Positions 238 to 17,668 of a stretch of 22,386 bases of DNA are shown in pieces. The position numbers were made by a program, and so were the translations under genes. The notes under the pieces were generated by a model. It did no database searches. It worked only from the letters and a program-made list of their open reading frames with translations, and was not told where the DNA came from. This DNA comes from a virus: the IMG/VR virus record IMGVR_UViG_3300032431_000038, positions 1 through 22,386 of that record; one strand, written 5' to 3'. The stretch's first letter is position 1. Each line of letters begins with the position of its first letter.

Positions 238-747
238 TCAGTATTTTTTTGTAACTTCTGCAACCTCCTTTCTATAATTAATGACTTCTTCTTTTAGCTC
301 AATGTTGGATATGCGCATTTCGTGTATCTCCTGAGTCAGCGCTTCGCTAATGTCGATAGACTTACGAATAACCTCTGTGTTGTTGTTTACTACCTCCCGA
401 ATAAGAGAAATCTCTTGTATGAGGGTAGCCATCAATTGAAAGCTTTCAGATGTTGCGCTCGACTGTCCAGCAGCCATTTGTTTGTTACTGTCGTTCATGC
501 CTTTCAGCATGTTCTCTAGAGAGGCAAACATTGAGTCATAGACTTTGTCTTCACGTCGGCGCTCAGTCTCGAGAGATTTGACTTTCTCTGTGGCAGCTAA
601 CTTTAAAAGCTGAGGTGCACCCAAGAATGTGAGTATACTCAGACAAGCGGCTAGCATCACCTCAACTGGAGAGAACCCTTGTGATGGTTGGACTGGTGGT
701 TGTACTGGTGTTTGCGATTGCGTAACTTGCGCGACAGTGTTTTTCAT
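238..747 (-). CDS. membrane-anchored coiled-coil protein, candidate lysis (holin or i-spanin-like) protein
   Basis: The 169-residue product has a Pro/Gln-rich N-terminus (PVQPPVQP at about residues 14-21), one hydrophobic segment at about 29-47 (VEVMLAACLSILTFLGAP), and then about 110 charged, heptad-like residues that should form a coiled coil. One transmembrane segment followed by a long coiled coil is the layout of an inner-membrane spanin; a non-canonical holin is the alternative. It is the last gene of the late operon, a place where T7-like phages often keep lysis genes. Its ATG overlaps the TAA of the preceding gene by one base (TAATG), implying translational coupling. No sequence motif ties it to a named family, so the lysis role rests on topology and position. 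Confidence 0.55.
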   Translation of the reverse strand: MKNTVAQVTQSQTPVQPPVQPSQGFSPVEVMLAACLSILTFLGAPQLLKLAATEKVKSLETERRREDKVYDSMFASLENMLKGMNDSNKQMAAGQSSATSESFQLMATLIQEISLIREVVNNNTEVIRKSIDISEALTQEIHEMRISNIELKEEVINYRKEVAEVTKKY

Positions 748-977
748 TACTTTTTAGTTTTTCTAGCTCTATTTTTTGACGCTGACTCAAACCCTGATAT
801 AAGACCGCCTTTATGCGAGGCATCCAGACCATCACCGTTGCCATAAGTACCCTTCTTCCGATTATAGGCATTAAGCTCGGCACGGTACTTTTTGCGCTTG
901 GTGGTCTTCTGGTACTTCTTGTCATAAGTGTAATCTCGACCTGTGGACTTGTTATGGACTCGTTTTGCCTTTGCCAT
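747..977 (-). CDS. small basic phage protein of the HNH-like 'GDGxDxxHK...NRxR' type
   Basis: The 76-residue, Lys/Arg-rich product resembles a family of small phage proteins often annotated as HNH-like. It has a GRDYTYDKKYQ start, a basic helix (KKYRAELNAYNRKKG at about residues 29-43), a GNGDGLDASHKGG core at about 46-58 and an SKNRARK tail. Relatives as I remember them carry GKDVDHK in the core; here that position reads GLDASHK, so the first D-H dyad residue is replaced and nuclease activity is doubtful. The start overlaps the end of the large internal protein gene by 26 nt, with a GGAGT ribosome site 10 nt upstream inside that gene. DNA binding or a minor virion role is possible; function is unproven. 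Confidence 0.7.
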   Translation of the reverse strand: MAKAKRVHNKSTGRDYTYDKKYQKTTKRKKYRAELNAYNRKKGTYGNGDGLDASHKGGLISGFESASKNRARKTKK

Positions 978-3900
978 ATTGGGGTATACTCCATTCTTGT
1001 CTGAACTTCATAAGCTGTTGCGCTTGGTTTTGGATGGCGGCATCAATAGGTGATACACCCATCTGCTGTATCTGGTTGAGGTACATCTCTTTCTGCTTAA
1101 TTTCTTTGTCAGTAAGAGTGCCACGTTCGCGCAAGTAGAGGTAGATACGGTCTTCGTCAATCTGCAACTGAGTGCGTGTGATAAGCAGTTTCTCCATATT
1201 CTGCACCCTCTCGGTATACGACTTAGTATTTTTGATACTTCCAGCGCGGGTGTCAGACAGTAAACTCTCCTTTTCACGGTCAAGCTGCTTAGTCACCACA
1301 TCAAGAGAGCGCGAGACATCGTTGTAGGTAATCTTGTTTTGCTTCACCATATCGATAACGCGCAAATTACCACCAATCGTACCCATTATACGGTATGCCC
1401 AATCTGACTCTACCTCTTTGCTCCGCAGCATACGACCAGTTGCGTCAGGTACTGCACCTCCAAGACCGCGCTTGCCTTGTTGGATAATCTCGCCATTGTT
1501 GTCGCGGATTTCGGGACTACCACTCAACCACTCCAAGTCTAGTCTGTCGAGCGCTCCAGCGTATGGTACAGCGTTGTTAATAAGACTGTACAACTCTGGC
1601 GGTACTTTGAATCCGAGCAGTGGGATGGCATTTTCACCACTTCGCAACGCTTTACCTGTGCGGAGGTTTGTGTTTGATGCGAGCTCATAAAGTATCTTTG
1701 CAGGTGCATAGGTGGATTGTAGCGCACGAACGAGAGTGGCATTACGCGCATCACCTTGCAGTTTAGCGCGACGGTCAGCGACTGTCTCATTCATGTTGAG
1801 AGTTTCGCGCAGAAATTCAAATGTGGAGGTAGTAGGATTGTAAGAGGCATCGTTCCAGAAGACAAGTTTGTTGTCGTCTCTACCCCTACCAATGTAATAA
1901 GGCATACCCTTCAAGATGTCGGGCGATATACCTGCTTCAGTTATGGAGTCGTCTTCACGCAACGGTTCGGCGGTAAACTGGCGCAACTTCTCATAAGCAG
2001 CATACCTCCATGGACGACGCACAACATCGCGCAATACACGCGGCATCATTGACGCTTGCCAAGAGAAGTACATGATGGCGTACTTATCGACAGCGTATGT
2101 CGCACTACCAACGTCGCGCATGTCTGGAAAGTAGTTGCGAATGTGCTTGTTAAGCGTTTCAGTTGTGTCAAACTGTTTCATGCTTTGTGAAAACATGTAA
2201 GTCATGCCTTTGTCAAAAGTATCTGCACCATCAATGCGCTTAACTACAGACCGTAGGGTAGTGTACTTCGCTGCGAAGTCAATCATATTAGCAGTGTAGA
2301 ATACAGGTGCAGACAGACCATCAATAACAGCACCAGACTTTTGCATAAAATAGTCTACACCTCCCAAGACGCGCTCCATTGAGTTCAGCGCCTTACCTCC
2401 AGTCAGTTCACCACTACCAAACATATACATCATCAGTTGGTACATTGACGAACTACTGTTGCCGAGCATTTCACGCGCAGCATCTTTAGGGTTAAATGAT
2501 GAGGGTTTACCGCGCTCACCAAAGATTGCAGTACTAGATGTGCCATGCTCTTGATAAACATGGTCAAGAAAGAGTTCGCGCTCAGTCAGTTGCTTACCAT
2601 CTATCTCGTACTTTTTGATGGTATTATCTAAGTGGTCAAGTCCTTCACCACTAACTACCCTACGGACATCGTTGAATGTAGGCATGTACAAAAGAACGTT
2701 CGCACCAGCAGCGTGCATCTGGTGGTAGTTTCCGCGCACTTGGTTAGCGAGGTACACAGGTGCGTTAGCAACAAGATTACCGCCTTTCAGCTTTGAGTAG
2801 AAAGTATTGATTGCACCAATAGCACCTCCAAGCTGTCCAAGCAACGCTGGAGATTTAGTGATGTCGAGAATGGCAACAACTTGGTCAGCCACTACAGGGT
2901 TCATGAGTATATCACCCAAAGCAGATTGCGTTTCAGCAGTTATACCTAAGCGCGAAGTCCACTCAAGCATCTTGTCTTCCATCTTAACGTAATTGGCATA
3001 CTTACGCTGCCCGACTGGGAGTAGTGCGTCATTTTCGTACACACCCTTCGGTATACTCCAACCGAGGCGCACGCCATCTTCTGCAAGTATGCCAGTTAAC
3101 ATCATTGAGATATTAGCTTGGTCGCCGATAGCTCTGGAGTAGCTCTGCATAAGCACCACAGGGTCAAGCTCAAACATATCAGCCGCGCTGTTGAAGGGTA
3201 GCTGATACTGAGTTTTTAGATAGTCGAACACCTCTGAGGTGCTCATGGGTAACTTCTGGAAAAAGCCAAGATTAAGAAGTGTATCTATTTGGGCAACAGA
3301 TAGGTTAGCTTCTACAAACAACTGCATCTGTAATGGATTGTCGATGAGTGCCATCAAATCTGGAGGTGCAACTTGCATTATCTCAGATGCGAGGTCAAGG
3401 TCAGTTGGTACGAGGTAATCGTACTTACGTGCAATGTCAAACTTAAACTTCGCATCTTTACCAACAGGTAGAACACTACCTTGTTTAGCTTCTGCTTCAA
3501 TAATGCGCCTACGCCATATCTTACCATCCATGTTAAAGATGCGTGTAATGTACCCCAAGAATGGCTCCATCTTGTCGATGTCCACCCCAAAGGCTACAGA
3601 CATCTTGCGAATATCATCAGAGATGCGCGACACATCTACAGCTTGGTTTATTAGTTGGTCAATCTGTGGTTGTGTGAAACCAGCGCGAATCATTTGTGTT
3701 TGGTACTGCTGATAACGCGCCTCTTGAACGTGGCGAACTGCAAAGTTGTCAGGGTCAAAGTACTCCAAGAAGTTAGGTATCTGACCTTTCTCAATTGTGT
3801 CTACCATCAACACACGGCGCTGGTTGGGTGCAATACCAAGTGCGTCTGCTGCTTTAGTGAACTCAGTGCGGAAGTCAATGAGCTTCTTAATCTCTACTAC

Positions 3901-4911
3901 ATCAGAGATTTTGTTAACAGCGTTCTCAGCAATAGTACCAGCACGCTGCAAGCCAAGGCGCACCTTGATAGCAGGACTCATGCTTTTAATTAGCTCCATT
4001 GTAATACCAAACTTCGACACAGCCCAATCCATGACACCTCTACCCTGTCTTGGGTCAAGGTCAATTGCTTCAGTGAGGTTTGCGTGGTAAGCATCGCGGT
4101 TAAGTCGCGTTTGCGCTAAATCGTCGACGTTAGAACGGCGTTGCGCTTCGTAGCGATTTTGTACATCGCGAGTCATGTCGAGCTTGAATTGTGCACCATC
4201 AAGCTCTGCCTGTGCTTTAGTGTAGTCTGATGATAGTTGCTTGTCTACCTTCGCAGCAGCTTCACCCCACTGTTTCTCCGCTTTTACTACCCTCTGTTGC
4301 GCCTTTGTAGTTGTTAGAACTTGCTTGTTTTGCTGACTCACAAGACCATCGCGCGTCTTGTAAAGTTTCTTCAATTCACCTGCTACTCCCTTTGCTTCTT
4401 TCTCAAGAGCTTTCTCCATCTGCACAAGAGCAGAATCAATCTTCTTGAGTGCATCAGGGTCAGTAGTTTTCTTTGCAAGGTAGAAGAGGTTCTCGTAAGA
4501 CTTGATGAGGCTAGGGTCAACGTCAGAGTTAGCTTTGTTAAAAGCAGTGTCGAGCTTGTCAATAGAAGTCTGGATGTTTTGTTCAACTTTCTTACTGGCT
4601 TTGACGGCTACCTCTTCTGCGGTGACAACTTTGCGCCGTGATACAAGATTGGCAGTAACAGACTTGTCGTTGAGTACAAGGTTCTCAATACGTGTGCGAA
4701 GTTTGTTGGTAGCGTTTTGAGCGGTGACTACTGCATTTTCAGCGTCAGTCAGCATTTTGACAGTCTCAGGAGTGTCGAGCATTTTGACATAATCAATAGC
4801 CATCTTGCGCTCTTTCATAACAGCAGCAGTACGCGCTTTGATGGTGTTGCTTTCATCTTGACTAAACGCCGCTTTAGCGCGTCCAGAAGGTAGAGGGCAG
4901 GGATTTAGCAT
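952..4911 (-). CDS. very large internal virion protein (gp16-like ejection/core protein)
   Basis: The product has 1319 residues, the size class of T7 gp16 (1318), and is the last large gene of the internal-protein block. The first 300 residues or so are charged and strongly helical (long Lys/Glu/Ala/Gln runs), suggesting coiled coils. The rest is mixed alpha-helical, with an aromatic/basic stretch at about 950-970 (SWQASMMPRVLRDVVRRPWRY) of a kind I associate with large podovirus internal proteins. No lytic transglycosylase motif is visible, unlike the N-terminus of T7 gp16; here that activity seems to reside in the protein encoded at 8376-11228. The ATG overlaps the stop of the upstream gene by 7 nt (ATGCTAA). 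The likely role is a core protein ejected into the cell envelope to form a DNA conduit; this is inferred from size, order and composition. Confidence 0.75.
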   Translation of the reverse strand: MLNPCPLPSGRAKAAFSQDESNTIKARTAAVMKERKMAIDYVKMLDTPETVKMLTDAENAVVTAQNATNKLRTRIENLVLNDKSVTANLVSRRKVVTAEEVAVKASKKVEQNIQTSIDKLDTAFNKANSDVDPSLIKSYENLFYLAKKTTDPDALKKIDSALVQMEKALEKEAKGVAGELKKLYKTRDGLVSQQNKQVLTTTKAQQRVVKAEKQWGEAAAKVDKQLSSDYTKAQAELDGAQFKLDMTRDVQNRYEAQRRSNVDDLAQTRLNRDAYHANLTEAIDLDPRQGRGVMDWAVSKFGITMELIKSMSPAIKVRLGLQRAGTIAENAVNKISDVVEIKKLIDFRTEFTKAADALGIAPNQRRVLMVDTIEKGQIPNFLEYFDPDNFAVRHVQEARYQQYQTQMIRAGFTQPQIDQLINQAVDVSRISDDIRKMSVAFGVDIDKMEPFLGYITRIFNMDGKIWRRRIIEAEAKQGSVLPVGKDAKFKFDIARKYDYLVPTDLDLASEIMQVAPPDLMALIDNPLQMQLFVEANLSVAQIDTLLNLGFFQKLPMSTSEVFDYLKTQYQLPFNSAADMFELDPVVLMQSYSRAIGDQANISMMLTGILAEDGVRLGWSIPKGVYENDALLPVGQRKYANYVKMEDKMLEWTSRLGITAETQSALGDILMNPVVADQVVAILDITKSPALLGQLGGAIGAINTFYSKLKGGNLVANAPVYLANQVRGNYHQMHAAGANVLLYMPTFNDVRRVVSGEGLDHLDNTIKKYEIDGKQLTERELFLDHVYQEHGTSSTAIFGERGKPSSFNPKDAAREMLGNSSSSMYQLMMYMFGSGELTGGKALNSMERVLGGVDYFMQKSGAVIDGLSAPVFYTANMIDFAAKYTTLRSVVKRIDGADTFDKGMTYMFSQSMKQFDTTETLNKHIRNYFPDMRDVGSATYAVDKYAIMYFSWQASMMPRVLRDVVRRPWRYAAYEKLRQFTAEPLREDDSITEAGISPDILKGMPYYIGRGRDDNKLVFWNDASYNPTTSTFEFLRETLNMNETVADRRAKLQGDARNATLVRALQSTYAPAKILYELASNTNLRTGKALRSGENAIPLLGFKVPPELYSLINNAVPYAGALDRLDLEWLSGSPEIRDNNGEIIQQGKRGLGGAVPDATGRMLRSKEVESDWAYRIMGTIGGNLRVIDMVKQNKITYNDVSRSLDVVTKQLDREKESLLSDTRAGSIKNTKSYTERVQNMEKLLITRTQLQIDEDRIYLYLRERGTLTDKEIKQKEMYLNQIQQMGVSPIDAAIQNQAQQLMKFRQEWSIPQYGKGKTSP

Positions 4912-7900
4912 GGTGTATCAAACAGTCCTTCTTTAGGTAAATGGTCATCAATAACATTAGAACGCGAAATCCGTTCAAGTCCGAGGTACTCCAAGTCGTT
5001 AGCTTTCATGGTATCGATGATGTTAGCCTTTTGCGCTGGAGTAGCTACCTCCCATATGTCTTTCAGCATTTTACTACTCCAATTGCGCTCTACTGGAGTA
5101 GTGACAGATAACTCTCTGTTTTTCAGTAGTTGGTCAAGAGAGGTGTCGCTCACTCTGCCAGTGGTGATAATTTCTTCTGATAGAGGGTGCACCTTCATAG
5201 AAGAAGCCTCACGACCGCTAAAGCCTTGTTCACGCAACGCAGCGACTCGCAGATTTTCTATAGACTGTGAAGAGTTGTTAACTACTTGGTATGCATCGAC
5301 AACTTCGGGTGTAACTGTGGAAGCTTTGACGTAAGACAATGCGGGTAGGTCAGGAGGTGGTGGTAGCTTAGTCTGCACCTTCTCCAGACCTAACTCACCA
5401 AGTCGCGTAGCAGTGATGTTCTCGACAACAATCTTACGCTGTTCAAGAGTAGACTTGCGCCAAAGAGTGTTAAAAATATTGTGCAGAACATTCTTAGATT
5501 CTTTAGTGACTGCCATATCATTTAAGATGTTAGAGACAGCTTCTATAGACTTGTTCGTTATCTTACCTTTTCTTACACCACCACCAATAACGTTCATGAC
5601 AGCAGGAGCAGTGAGCGCGTCTAATTCGAGGTCTTCGATGATGTCGCGTATCTCTATAATGGTCAACTCAAAGACATCTTCACCACTCTTTGTCAGCGGT
5701 GTGATGTAAGCTGGCATCCACTCACGGATTTCTTTCGTAGAGATAAAACTGTCAATTCGCACCTCATCTTTCAAGTCTGCAATGTTGGTGATGAGAGACT
5801 CACCCAACACAATAGGGTTAGCTGTTGGAGTGGGTATAGACTCGTCTAGCAAGTCTAACTGTGCGAGTAATGCGCGCTCTTTAGAAGCATCAGTAATAAA
5901 TGCACGTACACCAGTAAATTGAGGGTTTATCTCAGACGCACGTTTAGCAGCGAGATACTCTAGATGACCGCGTATGACTTCAAAATCAGTAGGGCTAGTA
6001 CGACGTACCACAATAGGACGAACATTATCACCTGTCTCCAATAGACGTTGTGCAAGCTTCTCTACCGCTTCAGGATTGTAGTTACCAGAACGGTAAGATT
6101 TTATACTCTCTAAATCAAGAGTCTTTGTACCAACAGCGTCTTGTGCAGATTGTCGTGCATTTGGTTTAAATTCAGGTTCTGCGGTAGCTGTACCCTTTAA
6201 CTCGACGGTGTCGCTCAGTTGCGCTATCTCCTTATACACTTCTTCTTGGCGCAAGAAGTTATCATACGCGGGAGTACCCTTCTTTATGATGGTAGCGCGT
6301 GGCTCAAAGTTAGGGTTAATCTCAGCAGCGCGAATAGAGGCGGAATACTCTTTTTCACCTCTAAGAACTTTGAACTCTACAGGACTTACACGCTCTAATA
6401 AGATAGGACGCGCAACATCGTTAGCGGCTACCATTTCGTTAGCCAGCTTCTCAATATCTGCACCCACAAACTGGGTAGGTCTGGGAGTAGAGATAGACTC
6501 AAGCGCAACGCTGTTAGTGGGTGTAGGGTCAGGTATGAAACTGTTGACGTTATTACGCGCTGGTTGGCGTTGTACCTGCTCAACAATGTTATACTCTAAT
6601 CTTGGCACCTCTCTTGGAAGTTCTATCTGCAATTTAGGTACAACGAAAGGAGTCTCTTTTATGAGTTCAAGTCTGTCAGCGACAATAGCTTCAATCTCTG
6701 ACTTTGTTGCGCCTTGGAGTACAGCAATATTTGGAGTGATGTCGCCAGTACGCGCAAACTCCAGCACATCTTGTATTATTGGGTTATTTCGCACTACCAC
6801 AGAAAGAGCGCGTTCATCAGGTATGGCGCGATACTCGATAACTTCGCGCATTAACTGTTGTACCTCTGGAAGAGAAGGTAAGTCGTTAAATGCGGAAGTT
6901 ACATTGTTGTAGAGGTTTACTTCTGGAACGGTAGGTACAATTGCGCGACTATCAGGGATTGGAGTGAAAGGCTGCTTTGGTTCAATGAACACGCGCTCTA
7001 CTGGTTTTACTGTAGCAAGCTCCTGACTGCGTGCAATCTCACGCTCTATTACTACCTCAGATGGTGGGTTTAATCTAGAGAGAGGTTTAGTATTCTCTGG
7101 AATAGCTGTGGCTAATTCACGTTGCACCCTAAAACGTTCTGGCTCAGGTAGGCGCGGTACATCTGGTGTTCTTACTGGCACGTCTACTTTAGGTAGTTCA
7201 GCAATTACGTCTGCTACTTTGTTAGCTCTACCCAATGGTCGGAGTAGTCTACCAACAAGAGCGTCACTATTGAGAGGGTCAGCAAGTATATCTAACCCAA
7301 AACCAAGACCAACTTGGAAGATGTTCCTGTCGTCACCAACAGCAGCAAGAGGGTTAAAAGGCTTACCTTTCTCATCTATCTGTGCGAGAGAACTAAATTG
7401 CTCACCGAGAATAGCAGCACCTGTAAAAGTGCCACCATTAGTAGGTCGCATAGCGTCATACGCTTTCTTCACCTCTTCTACATTTAAACCACCAGAAACA
7501 ACAGCAGCCGCTGGTCGTAGTACATCTAAGCCAATACCTTTGAACAAGTTGGCAGGGTATGACAGAGCAGCAAATAATGTCTCCAACTCACTCCTATTTT
7601 CACCACCAGAGAGAGGTAGAAAAGACATGTTGAAGTTGCGCCGTCCAGAGAGGTAGCCAGTCTTCTTAGACATTTCAGCACGAATCTGCGCCGCCGTCCA
7701 GCCGTTCCATGTTGTGAAAGAATCACGAACACCCTGTAGTGCAGGTATGTTACTCTTTCTATCAACTATACTCCCAAATCCTTGGTCATCACCCGCAGCA
7801 GAAGCATCGCGAATGTACGCAATATACTCCTCTTTGGAGATACCAGCAGCAATAGCTGCCCTAGCGTTAGGGTCAGAGAATGGGTTTGCCATTCCATTAG

Positions 7901-8369
7901 CAAGTATTGGCGGTTCAAACGCCATACGCTCAGATGCATTTTGCGGTGAGTTCGCCTTACTTGCTGCAAATGGATTGTTCTGTGATGATAGTTGAGGGTT
8001 TATCTGTACTGGTGCTTGTAGTGGGTTGAGCACTCCAGCGACATTGTTAGGCTTTGGGGTAGTATCCGCCAGCACCCTCGCAGTCTCAGCAGCAGATTCA
8101 GCCGACATCTTGGAGATAGTGTCACCATAAGACAGAGCATCAATGACAGGTACTTGCGATACTGGTGAACCTGTGGATGGTACAGCTTCAAGAGGCTGTG
8201 ACTGTGAGGGAGACGGTAGAACAGGAGTTAGTTCTGGAGGTGCGATAGGAGGCGCAATCTTCGTCACATCTACTGGAGGTGCAGAAGGAATAGTGACTGG
8301 CGCAATGTCAATCTTTAAAGGTGGAACATCATTGAGAGACTGTTCAATTTCTGTGATTATGTTTGGCAT
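4905..8369 (-). CDS. internal virion protein with two ParB-N-like domains
   Basis: The 1154-residue product opens with about 80 Pro-rich residues, followed by long mixed regions. Two segments resemble the ParB/Srx N-terminal fold. The first, about residues 633-700, contains EKLANEMV, then RPILLERVSPVEFKVLRG, with GEKEYSAS starting at Gly671. The second, about 763-830, contains EKLAQRLL, then RPIVVRRTSPTDFEVIRG, with GHLEYLAA starting at Gly801. Spacing between the two glycines is 130 residues. They align with the ParB G-E-R-R-x-x-A box, but the Arg pair is lost, so CTP use is doubtful. A second repeat (LW/IW...EQR/AQK...LGLE) lies at about 958-995 and 1097-1132. The gene sits between the peptidoglycan hydrolase and gp16-like genes, implying an internal core protein. 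ParB assignment is by motif reading only. Confidence 0.7.
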   Translation of the reverse strand: MPNIITEIEQSLNDVPPLKIDIAPVTIPSAPPVDVTKIAPPIAPPELTPVLPSPSQSQPLEAVPSTGSPVSQVPVIDALSYGDTISKMSAESAAETARVLADTTPKPNNVAGVLNPLQAPVQINPQLSSQNNPFAASKANSPQNASERMAFEPPILANGMANPFSDPNARAAIAAGISKEEYIAYIRDASAAGDDQGFGSIVDRKSNIPALQGVRDSFTTWNGWTAAQIRAEMSKKTGYLSGRRNFNMSFLPLSGGENRSELETLFAALSYPANLFKGIGLDVLRPAAAVVSGGLNVEEVKKAYDAMRPTNGGTFTGAAILGEQFSSLAQIDEKGKPFNPLAAVGDDRNIFQVGLGFGLDILADPLNSDALVGRLLRPLGRANKVADVIAELPKVDVPVRTPDVPRLPEPERFRVQRELATAIPENTKPLSRLNPPSEVVIEREIARSQELATVKPVERVFIEPKQPFTPIPDSRAIVPTVPEVNLYNNVTSAFNDLPSLPEVQQLMREVIEYRAIPDERALSVVVRNNPIIQDVLEFARTGDITPNIAVLQGATKSEIEAIVADRLELIKETPFVVPKLQIELPREVPRLEYNIVEQVQRQPARNNVNSFIPDPTPTNSVALESISTPRPTQFVGADIEKLANEMVAANDVARPILLERVSPVEFKVLRGEKEYSASIRAAEINPNFEPRATIIKKGTPAYDNFLRQEEVYKEIAQLSDTVELKGTATAEPEFKPNARQSAQDAVGTKTLDLESIKSYRSGNYNPEAVEKLAQRLLETGDNVRPIVVRRTSPTDFEVIRGHLEYLAAKRASEINPQFTGVRAFITDASKERALLAQLDLLDESIPTPTANPIVLGESLITNIADLKDEVRIDSFISTKEIREWMPAYITPLTKSGEDVFELTIIEIRDIIEDLELDALTAPAVMNVIGGGVRKGKITNKSIEAVSNILNDMAVTKESKNVLHNIFNTLWRKSTLEQRKIVVENITATRLGELGLEKVQTKLPPPPDLPALSYVKASTVTPEVVDAYQVVNNSSQSIENLRVAALREQGFSGREASSMKVHPLSEEIITTGRVSDTSLDQLLKNRELSVTTPVERNWSSKMLKDIWEVATPAQKANIIDTMKANDLEYLGLERISRSNVIDDHLPKEGLFDTPC

Positions 8370-8375
8370 TGTTTA

Positions 8376-11228
8376 TTACGGTGCTTGATGTGGTATAAAT
8401 CCCATACCTGCTCTAGTAAGACCTTGACAGGCTGTGCAAGAAGAACGGTAACGTTGGTGTACTGGCGCAACCTTTGGGGTGTAAGATGTTTCGTAAGAAC
8501 GACCAGCATGTTCACCCACTCTAGCAACATAAGAAGAGAACGTGATATCACCATCAGTTACGTTTGCAATACTTTGAGGGTCGCGCACATAATTAGTGAT
8601 GTCTTGATTCCTACCCCATATAGCAAGAATAATGGTTTCTGGTTTATTGAACTTTAAACCACCAGCCTCACTTCGTTGCTTTAGAAAGCGCTCTACATAC
8701 TTCAACTGCTCTACATTACTCATACGAGCTAGTGCAGCTTTAGTAGTACCAACGTCGATGGCGGCTTCATCACCAAACTGTATAAGACCAGTGTAGCCTA
8801 AATAATTAGTTATACTTGATGAGAATGTACCACCAGTCTCAAATGCCATTGCGTCTGCTAACCATTGTGTAGGTACTCCAAGACGTTTCGCTGTATTGTG
8901 CAACTCTCTACGGAATGGTGCGTCTTTCGCCAATACCGCGTAACCGTAGTTCTTGTCAGGACTGGAGGTATAAGCACTCTTATCTGTTGTTAAGCGCTGG
9001 TTGGTAATAGGGTTACGCGCAGAGTAATTGGGCGTGCTCGATGTACCGTCATTGCGAACTATCTTACCGTCTGAGAGGTACGCGCCATTAAGAGGGTAAG
9101 CATTTGGCGGCATGTTATTTGGCACCCCATTGCCGCGCTTAGCATTAATACCACGATTTGCGTTAGATAAGTTTTTTACACTCCAAGCAATAGGGTCTTC
9201 TGTTTTATCATAACCGCCATACATATCGTTACGAACTTCAAAGTGAAGGTGCGGTCCAGTACTACCACCAGTATTGCCAGTAAGACCGAGTAGACTTCCA
9301 GCCATCACCTCTTGACCTTCTTTTACACTCATACTGTTAAGATGAGCAAAACGGAGATACTTACCATCAGGAGTGCGCAAGTCAACATAATACCCATAAC
9401 CATCATCCCATCGTGCTGTAGTGACTTTACCTCCTAGAGGTGCAATAAGGCGCGTATTTGATGCAACTGCAATATCTATACCTGCATGAGGTCTACCGTT
9501 ACGGTCGGGTGACCTATCTGATGTAAACGTAACTGGTGTACCAACAGCAAATGGTAGTGGTAGTTTGACATCCCCAACCTGTAGCTCGGCAAGTTGGGGC
9601 ATGTTAAAATTTGGGTTAGTTCCTTGTTGCATTGACTGGCGTGACAACTGTCGAGAAGCTTCTAAATTAGTAAACACTGTAGAAGCGTCACGTTCAATGT
9701 TTTGACGTTGTTGCGGGTCATTCATCAACTTCTCTACTTTTGTCCAAGGAGAAGATAGGTTACCGAGTTCGGTCTGTAGAGCTTTGAGACTGTCATTAGA
9801 AGCATTTAAAACCACCTTACTAAATGCTTCTACATCTTGCTGCGCTTTCTGTACCTCTATTGGAGTACCTTGTGCTTGAGCTTTTGCCCACTGCTGAGAA
9901 AGCTGTGCAAGCTCCGCTACAATGTTAGTATTTAAAGAAATGTTAGGAAGTTTGAACGCTTGCTGAATCCACCCTAAGCGGTCTTTTGCATCACCTTTTC
10001 CAAGGTTAGCAATTGTGACAGCGTATGCGTTAATCTTCTCTGAGAGTGTAACTTTTTTATCTCTGTCAGACAGGTACTGGTCGCCAGCGTTTATTGCTGA
10101 CTCCAATGCTGGCACACCTTTAGCACGTTCTTTCATCATCGCTCTTTGCACCCCATCAGCATTGAGGTATGAAGCAGTTAGAGAGTTAGTTAAACCGTCA
10201 GTGATGGTGAATGACTTATCAGAACTTAATTCGTTGCGTCGTTGCGCTGCATCAAGTTCACCAGTACGTTTGAGCATTTCAAAGGCACGGTCATCAGCAG
10301 CGTAAGGATTAAGCAAATCTTTGTAAGCACTTGCAAACTGTGGAGGTACAGTTGCTTGGATAGCAGACAGAACAGCAGCACGTTGTTCTGGAGGTAGTCT
10401 ATTTGCTTCGTCAATTTGCTGGTTAATCATGACCACTTGACGCAAACTGTCTTGAACTTTTGCACCAACTTCACTACCTTTCGCGGAAGACTTGCCGAGT
10501 GTGGTGAGAAACAGATTAGTAGCGTATAGCCGTTCTTCTGGTCTTAACTTACTATTCACTAAAGAGTCAGTGAATATTTTAGTAATGTTGTTTAACTTCG
10601 TTTGACGCTCTTCTGGATTAGACACCATTTCAAGGTCTGCAAGTTGGGTATCAAGATTTAATGTCTGTGTCTTTACAAACACCTCTGTAGAAGACTCACG
10701 AACTTTGTCACCCTCTTTGCGGAGTGCAGTAACGCTTGCTTCTTGGTTCTGCTGAACAGGGTTGTACAGTCGCAGAAGTTGTGTCTGTAACTGCGCAGCG
10801 TCTACACTACCAGCGTATCGAGCAGCTAAAGCTTCGACTTGTTTCTGGTAACCAATACCTCCTTGGTCAGTCTTGTTAATTAAGTCAGGTGCATTAGCGG
10901 CAAGCTTATTAGCTTCTAAAATAAATTCTTTCTCAGCCGCCGCCGCTTCTGCTTTCTTCTGTGCATCTATATACCCCAAACCAACTTTAGCAATCTCAGC
11001 TATACCTCCAAAGATATTACCTCCAGATTGAGGTTGCACCACAACTTTACGACCAGTCGCTTCTGCGTCTGCATTAGACGCGGTACTGTTAATCCGCTGC
11101 ACATCTGCGACAGACTGGCGAATACTATTAAACGATGCACTAGCAATGTCAGGCACGTCGAGCATTTTGCCATCTTGCATCTGCGTGTTGACTGGTTCAA
11201 TTTTAAAATCACTTCCAATGTACTTCAT
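8376..11228 (-). CDS. virion-associated peptidoglycan hydrolase: M23 endopeptidase plus lytic transglycosylase-like domain
   Basis: The product has 950 residues. The N-terminal 500 or so are helical and rich in Ala, Gln and Lys. An M23 (lysostaphin/LytM-type) zinc metallopeptidase domain follows at about 555-680: the HAGID motif gives His581 and Asp585, FAHLNS gives His629, and GPHLHFEV gives His660 and His662, so the zinc and catalytic residues look complete. A lysozyme-like/SLT domain lies at about 775-900, with a candidate catalytic Glu797 in AMAFETGGTF and the typical GYTGLIQFGD downstream. The tail carries two Cys (SSCTACQGL). The likely role is to cut peptide cross-links and glycan strands during DNA entry. 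Position matches T7 gp15, whose usual length (about 750) is shorter and which lacks these enzymes. The ATG overlaps the upstream gene as ATGA; a 6-nt gap precedes the next gene. Confidence 0.85.
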   Translation of the reverse strand: MKYIGSDFKIEPVNTQMQDGKMLDVPDIASASFNSIRQSVADVQRINSTASNADAEATGRKVVVQPQSGGNIFGGIAEIAKVGLGYIDAQKKAEAAAAEKEFILEANKLAANAPDLINKTDQGGIGYQKQVEALAARYAGSVDAAQLQTQLLRLYNPVQQNQEASVTALRKEGDKVRESSTEVFVKTQTLNLDTQLADLEMVSNPEERQTKLNNITKIFTDSLVNSKLRPEERLYATNLFLTTLGKSSAKGSEVGAKVQDSLRQVVMINQQIDEANRLPPEQRAAVLSAIQATVPPQFASAYKDLLNPYAADDRAFEMLKRTGELDAAQRRNELSSDKSFTITDGLTNSLTASYLNADGVQRAMMKERAKGVPALESAINAGDQYLSDRDKKVTLSEKINAYAVTIANLGKGDAKDRLGWIQQAFKLPNISLNTNIVAELAQLSQQWAKAQAQGTPIEVQKAQQDVEAFSKVVLNASNDSLKALQTELGNLSSPWTKVEKLMNDPQQRQNIERDASTVFTNLEASRQLSRQSMQQGTNPNFNMPQLAELQVGDVKLPLPFAVGTPVTFTSDRSPDRNGRPHAGIDIAVASNTRLIAPLGGKVTTARWDDGYGYYVDLRTPDGKYLRFAHLNSMSVKEGQEVMAGSLLGLTGNTGGSTGPHLHFEVRNDMYGGYDKTEDPIAWSVKNLSNANRGINAKRGNGVPNNMPPNAYPLNGAYLSDGKIVRNDGTSSTPNYSARNPITNQRLTTDKSAYTSSPDKNYGYAVLAKDAPFRRELHNTAKRLGVPTQWLADAMAFETGGTFSSSITNYLGYTGLIQFGDEAAIDVGTTKAALARMSNVEQLKYVERFLKQRSEAGGLKFNKPETIILAIWGRNQDITNYVRDPQSIANVTDGDITFSSYVARVGEHAGRSYETSYTPKVAPVHQRYRSSCTACQGLTRAGMGFIPHQAP

Positions 11229-12295
11229 GCAGAGAAACCTCCTCTAAAATTATAATTAGGGTCATAGCGCGAATCGGACACTCTTAAACCAGTAGGTTGT
11301 GAAATAGGTGAAACAGGCGCTCGTTGTTGCTGTTGACTACCAAAGCTGTTAAACAGTGATATACCAGCGCTTGCTATAGGCGCAAGGTGGTCAAACATGG
11401 AGAAGCTCCTGTTATTGCGCGATACGTCAACATTCTTTGCGCTTGTTGCACTCCTAATATTAGACTCTTGAGCGCCAGCAAGATTCTCATTACCAACAAC
11501 TTTACGGTAAGCAGACAGTTGTTCTATCTGACTGTTAAGCGCTTGCATTTCTTGAGTAGTGCCAAAAAGTGAATCATTTGCTTGGAAAGCATTACGCTGC
11601 ATTGCGTCAGAAGCACTCAAGGCATTTTGCGCGGCTGCTGTTTGAATTGACGCATTAGTGTCGCCAGATTGTTGGGTAAGTTCGCCAAACCCTTGTAGCA
11701 AATCGCCATACTGTTGCGCGTAATCTAACTGCTGCATCTGGTCACCATCTGCACCACGAAGCTGGTCGAATTGTGACAACACTTTATCTTCTTCGCCAGT
11801 ACGGTACATGTCCGCCATCATAGGGTTTAGCGCCGCCATGATAGCTGCGCGTTGTGTCACCACATTGCTAGCGAGTTTATCAAATGGCACCCCTTGGATA
11901 TCTATACCTCTAGCTTGCGCCGCTTGTGACAGACTATTCTGGAGGGTGTTAGACCTGTCGACTTCACCCTTCTTTGCACCCACATCAATAGCGGATTGTG
12001 CGCTAGTTATCTGAGTGTTCTGGAGGGTGCGCTGTGTTTGAGCGTCTAGTCGTGCTATCTGTGCAGAAGAGAGTGAAGCTGCTAGTTGCGCCAACCGTTG
12101 TTGCGAGCCAAGCTCAAAGTCAATCTGGTTAGACTGACGCTGCGCTTGAACGTCGAGTAGACGTATTTGCTCTTCGCGGTTGTTAGCTTCTATCTGCATT
12201 GCGTTAGCTGCGTTTTGCGCCGACGCTGCGCTTGAAGCAGACATCATACCACTAACAGCGGACACAATACCTATGACTGGAGCGATAAATCCCAT
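11225..12295 (-). CDS. internal virion protein B-like (T7 gp14 position)
   Basis: The 356-residue product starts with a hydrophobic, glycine/alanine/serine-rich segment (MGFIAPVIGIVSAVSGMMSA) and continues as a Gln/Ala-rich helical protein with coiled-coil character (residues about 25-290), followed by a flexible tail (QQQQRAPVSP, FRGGFSA). An N-terminal hydrophobic stretch, high Ala/Gln content and placement between the tail genes and the large internal proteins are features of gp14-like proteins, which in T7 form a pore in the outer membrane. It is longer than T7 gp14 (196 residues). The start overlaps the upstream stop as TAATG, and its own stop overlaps the next start as ATGA. Homology is inferred from order and composition rather than a clear motif. 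Confidence 0.7.
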   Translation of the reverse strand: MGFIAPVIGIVSAVSGMMSASSAASAQNAANAMQIEANNREEQIRLLDVQAQRQSNQIDFELGSQQRLAQLAASLSSAQIARLDAQTQRTLQNTQITSAQSAIDVGAKKGEVDRSNTLQNSLSQAAQARGIDIQGVPFDKLASNVVTQRAAIMAALNPMMADMYRTGEEDKVLSQFDQLRGADGDQMQQLDYAQQYGDLLQGFGELTQQSGDTNASIQTAAAQNALSASDAMQRNAFQANDSLFGTTQEMQALNSQIEQLSAYRKVVGNENLAGAQESNIRSATSAKNVDVSRNNRSFSMFDHLAPIASAGISLFNSFGSQQQQRAPVSPISQPTGLRVSDSRYDPNYNFRGGFSA

Positions 12296-16547: not shown

Positions 16548-17182
16548 TATCTTCTACCTCCTCGGAACATATTAGGTCGTGCGCTATCTATGCGCTGGTC
16601 TTTCTGCATTGCTCTCTTCACCCTCATCATGTACTCCTGCATAAACGACTGGTGTGAACCTTGGTCGTCTAGCATTTGTAAAGCAAGTTTTGCAGACATA
16701 AGGTGCTGCATAATTGCAACGTAATTGTCAGTGAAGGGTATGAGCGCTGCTTGAGTAAATACTGGCAAAGGTAATTCAGAAACGTAATCTATTCTAATTA
16801 ATGCTCTGTCTGTTACTTTTGGTAGTGCGTAGAACTTTATAGTTACGTTATCAACCAAGTGGTAATAGCTTACTGTACCCTCTCTGGTCTGGTCTACTCC
16901 AAGCATCTCCACTTCGTAAGTTGCGGTAAGCTTCTTTAAACCCAAAAACACAGACTGCACAGTTTCATACTGTGGGACTGTCGCGACATTACCTACCCAA
17001 GATGTCGGCACACCCACCCTACGAAGAAAGCTCCACCCATATTCATGAATGAAGCTTTCGTAAGTATCTTTAAATATTCTGTAAGCGCGACGTTGAGCAG
17101 CAGAAACAATAATTGCTTTCATGTAGTCGCGCTCACCGATGGAGAGTAGGCAAGAGTTAATAAAATCTAATTGAGTGGTCAC
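16547..17182 (-). CDS. tail tubular protein A (head-tail adaptor, T7 gp11-like)
   Basis: The 211-residue product matches the gp11 family in length (T7 gp11 is 196) and signature: an INSCLLSIGERDY start like the family's xxILxSIGE, a helical region, a YGWSFLRR motif at about residues 48-55 (compare RGWTFN in T7), and a strand-rich middle. The family forms the ring between portal and nozzle. The start codon is GTG at 17182, overlapping the TGA of the KTSC gene as GTGA; the ribosome site is weak (AAGAAG). The C-terminus ends FRGGRR. The gene directly precedes the nozzle gene, as expected. Confidence 0.85.
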   Translation of the reverse strand: MTTQLDFINSCLLSIGERDYMKAIIVSAAQRRAYRIFKDTYESFIHEYGWSFLRRVGVPTSWVGNVATVPQYETVQSVFLGLKKLTATYEVEMLGVDQTREGTVSYYHLVDNVTIKFYALPKVTDRALIRIDYVSELPLPVFTQAALIPFTDNYVAIMQHLMSAKLALQMLDDQGSHQSFMQEYMMRVKRAMQKDQRIDSARPNMFRGGRR

Positions 17183-17388
17183 AACTTCTTGTACTCATAG
17201 TCGTTCTTTATGTTTCTTGCGAAATAGCTGCCTACAGACTTTGCTTCTAAAAACTCAGAAGCAACCTCTGGTTCTACTCCAATGTACTGGTACAATGAAT
17301 TAGAGGTAAACTCAACTTCCAGCGTTCTAGAAGTTGAGTCGTAACCAACAGCTTTTATGTTCGATGACTTAACAGCTGTTCTTTTCAT
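17179..17388 (-). CDS. KTSC-domain protein
   Basis: The 69-residue product is a single KTSC domain (PF13619-type): VKSSNIKAVGYDSTSRTLEV, then EFTSNSLYQYIGVEPEV, then AKSVGSYFARNIKNDYEY, with the family's G-Y-D, the L-x-V-x-F strand, the Y-x-Y turn, the S-x-G-x-Y-F motif and the final Y. KTSC domains occur alone in phages and bacteria and fused to other proteins; the biochemical role is not established. The ATG abuts the TAG of the Tad2-like gene with no gap, and GAGG lies 5 nt upstream, so the two are probably made together. Both sit between capsid and tail genes where T7 has none, like a small accessory cassette. Confidence 0.85.
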   Translation of the reverse strand: MKRTAVKSSNIKAVGYDSTSRTLEVEFTSNSLYQYIGVEPEVASEFLEAKSVGSYFARNIKNDYEYKKL

Positions 17389-17634
17389 CTACACCTCTAC
17401 CCAATCTTCAGAAAGCATATCAGTCTGGCTGGCAAGCCAAGGAACCAAGCTTTTAGGAGCGTCAGGATTGTCAGTCTGCAAACCTGTAGTGTCGATGTAG
17501 ATGTAAGGATGTGTCATCTTAGAGTGAGCATCGGGTACTTGTAGCTTGATAAAAATACCTTTACCATTCCATCCTTTACGAGCCACCTTCTCACCACTCT
17601 TCAAGAGTTCTATTGCATCACCAAAATTTAACAT
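17389..17634 (-). CDS. tad2: DUF2829/Tad2-like anti-Thoeris protein
   Basis: The 81-residue product is a DUF2829 domain: MLNFGDAIELLKSGEKVARK followed by GWNGKGIFIKL, then a central segment and the C-terminal signature VPWLASQTDMLSEDW. Family members named Tad2 bind and sequester the gcADPR signals made by Thoeris TIR proteins, and some also bind CBASS cyclic nucleotides. An upstream ATG at 17661 would add nine residues (MTSNLKVIY), but AAGGTGA at 17640-17646 lies 5 nt before the ATG at 17634 and the family begins at this point, so 17634 is preferred. It is the first gene after the capsid terminator-like hairpin and is coupled to the KTSC gene. The family call is strong; activity in this phage is inferred. 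Confidence 0.85.
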   Translation of the reverse strand: MLNFGDAIELLKSGEKVARKGWNGKGIFIKLQVPDAHSKMTHPYIYIDTTGLQTDNPDAPKSLVPWLASQTDMLSEDWVEV

Positions 17635-17639
17635 ATAAA

Positions 17640-17646
17640 TCACCTT
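17640..17646 (-). promoter_or_regulatory. ribosome binding site fixing the Tad2 start
   Basis: AAGGTGA on the minus strand, 5 nt before the ATG at 17634. It lies inside the longer reading frame from 17661, so it supports the shorter 81-residue product. Confidence 0.7.
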
Positions 17647-17668
17647 AAGGTTAGAAGTCAAAATATTG

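Follow-up and report, generated by a model that had tools for sequence, protein, structure and literature searches.

ParB-like domains in virion-delivered proteins have already been proposed for the polyvalent proteins, P1 DdrB among them (Iyer et al. 2017, PMC5512222). The DdrB-like ParB resembles the locus described here in that the ParB/Srx domain belongs to a large phage protein with presumed delivery alongside the DNA, and in that ART and GNAT domains accompany it in relatives. The pocket arginine, retained in DdrB-like domains, is missing from the domains analyzed here, whose nearest relatives form a host family. Of the multi-effector architecture of polyvalent proteins, the present protein carries a tandem of ParB-like domains only, and the ART-like and GNAT-like segments of two related alleles (L002 and L020) fall below Pfam cut-offs. 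The fold is also shared with the chromosomal ParB and Noc CTPases, but the domains lack the CTP arginines and box III, and no helix-turn-helix (HTH) domain was found. In Caulobacter crescentus ParB, the substitutions R103A and R104A (the GERR pair), N136A, and R139A left CTP binding weak or nil (PMC8367383). Protein gp27 of Anabaena phage A-4L occupies the same gene position as the protein studied here and carries one domain of the same subfamily; it differs in that this single copy lies near the C terminus beside an ART-like segment, in a backbone that is barely similar in sequence.

Virion genes of the window

The DNA analyzed, referred to as the window, is a virus record of 22,386 bases (IMG/VR IMGVR_UViG_3300032431_000038). 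Read along its minus strand, it encodes terminase, portal, scaffold, major head protein, and tail proteins, followed by a protein of 356 aa, an M23 peptidase of 950 aa, and proteins of 1154 and 1319 aa (Table 1). The matches of the 1319-aa and M23 proteins were Saffermanviridae (Pf-WMP3, Pf-WMP4, A-4L, LPP, and TR020), podoviruses whose hosts are filamentous freshwater cyanobacteria. The order M23 peptidase, large middle protein, gp26-like protein was common to the window and these phages. Judged by its genes, the window phage is a podovirus related to the Saffermanviridae, with a putative filamentous cyanobacterial host.

The 1154-aa protein matched no PDB entry by sequence, and tblastn of the whole protein against phage records gave no match. 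Comparison of its backbone with A-4L gp27 yielded a weak relationship (hhalign probability 35%, E 4e-4), so that the correspondence to gp27 is carried by synteny. In PDB 9k3a, chain B was identical to A-4L gp27 and chain A (A-4L gp26) was the match of the 1319-aa protein; the M23 protein matched the "Internal protein" in chain E of 9k2v, the entry that contains A-4L gp28. Because the syntenic gp27 is present in 9k3a, the 1154-aa protein was taken to be a "polyvalent"-type component of the virion.

The head genes are separated from the tail genes by the gene for a 90-aa Tad2-like protein (positions 17389-17661, minus strand; Pfam PF11195, 83 bits versus a cut-off of 25), a member of a family of Thoeris inhibitors, i.e. 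anti-defence proteins. It is adjoined by the gene for a 69-aa KTSC-domain protein (17179-17388, minus strand; 87 bits).

Table 1. Positions of genes, domains, and motifs in the window
Feature	Position	Strand	Evidence
Gene for 1154-aa ejection-type (polyvalent-like) protein	4905..8369	-	ORF; synteny with A-4L gp27 (PDB 9k3a chain B)
1319-aa neighbour, ejection/core type	952..4911	-	Homologue of A-4L gp26 (PDB 9k3a chain A)
950-aa M23 peptidase	8376..11228	-	Homologue of A-4L "internal protein" (PDB 9k2v chain E)
356-aa protein	11225..12295	-	Positional counterpart of the small internal protein; without match to a family
ParB/Srx-like domain D1, residues 619-712	6234..6515	-	Six-frame search, repeat alignment, profiles
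ParB/Srx-like domain D2, residues 749-841	5847..6125	-	Pfam, profiles, AlphaFold2 model, Foldseek
In-frame D1+D2 cassette, ~221 codons	5840..6515	-	Missing from L001; flanks 82-85% DNA identity
Box II of D1, GEKEYSA (ParB: GERRxRA)	6339..6359	-	Alignment
Box II of D2, GHLEYLA (ParB: GERRxRA)	5949..5969	-	Alignment

Fold of the tandem domains and loss of the CTP site

The 1154-aa protein holds two related ParB/Srx-fold domains in tandem, D1 and D2. Pfam ParB_N matched residues 763-812 within D2 (28.6 bits, cut-off 26.3), and both copies were detected in a six-frame search (E 1.7e-6 and 8.1e-4). The two domains aligned to each other with a Smith-Waterman score of 146, the maximum among 5,000 shuffles being 51, and the RPI motif begins at residue 654 in D1 and at residue 784 in D2, i.e. 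at a spacing of 130. When a profile was built from four domain copies, Noc and ParB were the best solved structures, and the alignment spanned box II. The AlphaFold2 model of the tandem, calculated from a two-row alignment, was weak (pLDDT 62.6); its best Foldseek matches were Noc, ParB, sulfiredoxin, and KorB, and ParB, Noc, KorB, Srx, and SbnI were the matches found with Foldseek and VIA-align. A model of D2 only, based on 18 rows, reached a pLDDT of 89.6 and a pTM of 0.80. ParB and Noc were its top Foldseek matches (E 6e-6), which assigns D2 to the fold of the ParB/Srx superfamily.

The initial annotation, which gave no strand, had described related segments 130 residues apart in a putative ejection protein, had assigned them the ParB/Srx N-terminal fold including the position of box II, and had proposed the structure prediction and fold search reported above. 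The repeat is borne out by the shuffled alignments and the RPI spacing, Pfam, the solved-structure profile search, and the fold search agree on the fold, and a position among the ejection genes is supported by the presence of A-4L gp27, gp26, and gp28 in the two A-4L structures. No HTH family was found in the 1154-aa protein by Pfam that could represent a DNA-binding domain after the N-domain. A suspected internal repeat at the C terminus did not reach significance.

In cyanobacterial ParBs, box II reads GERRYRA. At the GERR position, the six phage tandem copies exhibited GEKE, GHLE, GDLQ, GNLE, DNTL, and GNLE. Neither the box III motif ENxxR nor the conserved pocket or active-site arginine was present in any of the six aligned copies. 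The loss of the arginine pair noted at the outset is therefore real in both D1 and D2, and the changed activity suggested along with it is supported as an idea. As the CTP-binding residues are lost and a DNA-binding domain is not evident, the tandem would most likely act by binding. A catalytic effector with NTP-dependent nuclease or nucleotidase activity, which has been proposed for the DdrB-like ParB domains of polyvalent proteins and would be of the ParB/Srx superfamily, would agree with the shared fold and with a delivery context like that of PMC5512222. With the active-site arginine missing in six of six tandem copies and box III missing as well, we regard such an activity as quite improbable.

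Relationship to a ParA-partnered cyanobacterial family

The motif DGHFEYYAA, which we took to be that of cyanobacterial ParB-like proteins, matched 35 stretches as a search pattern, all of them cyanobacterial. Since this first route to the host family began from a motif, the search was repeated with profile A4, built exclusively from phage domains. This profile matched 30 of 194 cyanobacterial genomes, at one locus each; all loci belonged to the host family and none to canonical ParB. A scan of genome contigs with short patterns of the phage domain itself did not find a relative. The profile of the cyanobacterial N-domains scored 65.8 bits for D2 and 36.6 bits for D1, and phmmer with D2 gave 62.5 bits for the best family member versus at most 24.6 for the canonical ParBs of the same genomes. 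In a tree of 45 rows, the split between canonical ParB and the phage domains plus host family had 100/100 support; host member L099 grouped with the six tandem copies (98/92). According to AU tests, nesting of the phage domains in the host family was not forced (p 0.20) and a single phage clade was not rejected (p 0.14). These sequence comparisons leave little doubt that the phage domains are related to the cyanobacterial ParA-partnered ParB-like family and not to partition ParBs.

The host protein is a ParB-like protein of ~240 aa with one ParB/Srx domain. Like D1 and D2, it carries box II in the form G-x-x-E-Y-x-A and has no ENxxR; position 4 of box II was Glu in 25 of 29 members and Arg in none. 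It differs from the phage domains by its single-domain build, a C-terminal part, and a box I of the form PRS. Of this protein, the phages have the N-domain alone, as two copies in the window and as one in A-4L, built into a virion protein; the window has neither the host C-terminal part nor an adjacent ParA gene, and the neighbours are virion genes.

Within 50,697 phage records, tblastn with the Nostoc member of the host family found Anabaena phage A-4L as the sole match (two records; gp27, E 2e-5), and A-4L gp27 was also the best BFVD match of the D2 model. The subfamily profile detected one copy in A-4L; six further genomes of the Saffermanviridae type gave no match. Pf-WMP4 gp32 (L009) and Pf-WMP3 gp26 (L010), both named "ParB-like partition nuclease" in RefSeq, were rejected as further carriers, as neither genome contained a ParB domain according to Pfam ParB_N and the subfamily profile. 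Pf-WMP4 gp32 harbors an ADP-ribosyltransferase above the Pfam cut-off. The host family had no match among PLSDB plasmids.

In 30 pattern-selected loci, the genes directly upstream of the ParB-like gene formed one cluster of ParA-type ATPases (AAA_31, 183 bits), with an N terminus that scored at the cut-off for HSDR_N (type I restriction). In the sampled cyanobacterial genomes, ParA likewise lay immediately upstream of almost all members, mostly at -1 to +9 bases. The HSDR_N-like part was present in 25 of these ParA genes; the D...EAK motifs were intact in 21 of these and KGGVGKTT in all 25. PADLOC returned weak matches in the ParA region only, and the pair is not among the known defence systems. 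A published name for the HSDR_N-ParA-partnered ParB-like protein was not found in the literature. The carboxysome-positioning system McdAB does not fit, because McdB is reported to be without ParB similarity (PMC6328274). In some genomes with the host family, no canonical ParB was seen on the chromosome. A housekeeping role is thus possible, and the pair may be the main chromosomal ParAB pair in several genomes. In two cyanobacterial genomes (L132, positions 4077-5163, and L133, 3771-4863), the pair is followed by a third gene for a protein of 362-364 aa with a degenerate ParB-like domain at its N terminus.

The loss of the arginines is thus not peculiar to the phage but the rule in the nearest cellular family. 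Canonical nucleotide binding or gripping of DNA, which the initial annotation had suggested, is for this reason unlikely for the phage domain and the host-family domain alike. The suggested action on the chromosome is better replaced by a putative action on the host ParA/nuclease pair.

Presence of the cassette in relatives and proposed role

Relatives in IMG/VR were collected by whole-protein search and domain search; L027-L030, in which the M23 peptidase was the sole match, were excluded. L001 was 80% identical over the protein but the tandem was missing. On the DNA level, window and L001 were 85% identical up to gene position 1854 and 82% identical from position 2531, the intervening stretch being absent in L001. 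L003 was also devoid of the tandem, and no copy was present elsewhere in either record. By tblastn, the cassette gave insignificant matches only. L002 contained the tandem plus an extra insert of ~180 aa with the ART-like motif YHG...GNGLYTT. The L020 protein (569-5647, 1692 aa) combined the insert of L002, here at a different site, with a GNAT-like segment, the tandem, and one more ART-like segment, which is the richest cargo load among the alleles. All Pfam scores of the L002 and L020 inserts were below cut-offs (DUF3990, 7e-6; ART-PolyVal, 0.02; GNAT, 0.005; ART, 0.01), and a search of the ART-like and GNAT-like inserts against solved structures gave nothing convincing. The syntenic proteins of Pf-WMP4 and Dor1 had an ART match above the Pfam cut-off. 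The segment of residues ~873-983 (window 5420-5751, minus strand) was without a DNA-level match to L001, both flanks being 82-83% identical; it represents a further exchanged or fast-evolving stretch.

The tandem is very likely a cargo cassette within a virion protein. The tandems of the window and L002 were 56% identical, similar to the remaining protein, which makes it probable that the tandem dates far back and that loss or exchange occurred on more than one occasion. Identity between phages amounted to 33-58% for D1, 62-66% for D2, and 52-67% for the backbone. D1 thus diverges faster than D2. Host-acquired domains that are being lost and have little present function would fit the diverging D1 and the two relatives without the cassette; as D2 is conserved like the backbone and has kept the family signature, such a remnant appears improbable to us. 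We rate equally low a structural role, in which the tandem would pack in the head core or aid DNA threading and have no host target. The protein does belong to the core/ejection set, but two relatives do without the cassette, the protein has unrelated domains in others, and such a role would not account for the kinship with one host family.

The closest relatives of the tandem are cyanobacterial proteins encoded beside a nuclease-linked ParA. This suggests a look-alike of a host protein that would disarm or redirect the host system at the start of infection. We tentatively propose that the tandem is ejected cargo that mimics the ParB-like partner and acts on the host nuclease-ParA pair, a reading to which we give somewhat less than even probability. 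The virion protein, and its ParB/Srx domains along with it, would probably enter the cell ahead of or together with the DNA. Its conserved backbone has linker sites that accommodate exchangeable cargo domains, here the ParB/Srx tandem. The tandem would copy one binding face of the host ParB-like partner and could imitate a ParB dimer. By engaging either the host ParA-nuclease or its ParB-like partner, it would keep the ParA-nuclease inactive during genome entry.

Alternatively, the domains might bind the host ParA and tether the incoming DNA or the ejection complex to the nucleoid for transcription and replication, in the manner of ParB-cargo adaptors. The homology to the host family, the ParA operon context, and the nature of ParA and McdA as nucleoid-bound positioning ATPases (PMC6328274) would agree with such a hijack. 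Close relatives can, however, dispense with the cassette, and a nuclease-like domain is usually present in the partner ParA, a feature that fits defence at least equally well; we therefore consider tethering rather unlikely. Binding might thus block a defence, disturb the nucleoid, or position the phage genome. The nuclease-like ParA and the Tad2-like anti-Thoeris protein in the window genome tilt the interpretation toward anti-defence. The anti-defence outcome, the binding to host ParA, and the ejection of the domain are all steps that we infer. It is conceivable, albeit doubtful, that a look-alike of the ParB-like subunit of an undescribed host nuclease-ParA defence system is injected by phages infecting filamentous cyanobacteria, the ejected protein serving as a cargo rack whose host-targeting domains are swapped among close relatives.

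Polyvalent virion proteins are predicted to carry effectors, for which few targets are known, and the sequence analyzed here names a candidate target in the host. This candidate is a two-gene operon for a restriction-nuclease-like ParA and a ParB-like protein, present in ~15% of the sampled cyanobacterial genomes. As A-4L, with its known host Anabaena variabilis, carries the same domain, the idea is testable at once. The host operon is a candidate defence or nucleoid-organizing system and would be of interest in itself.
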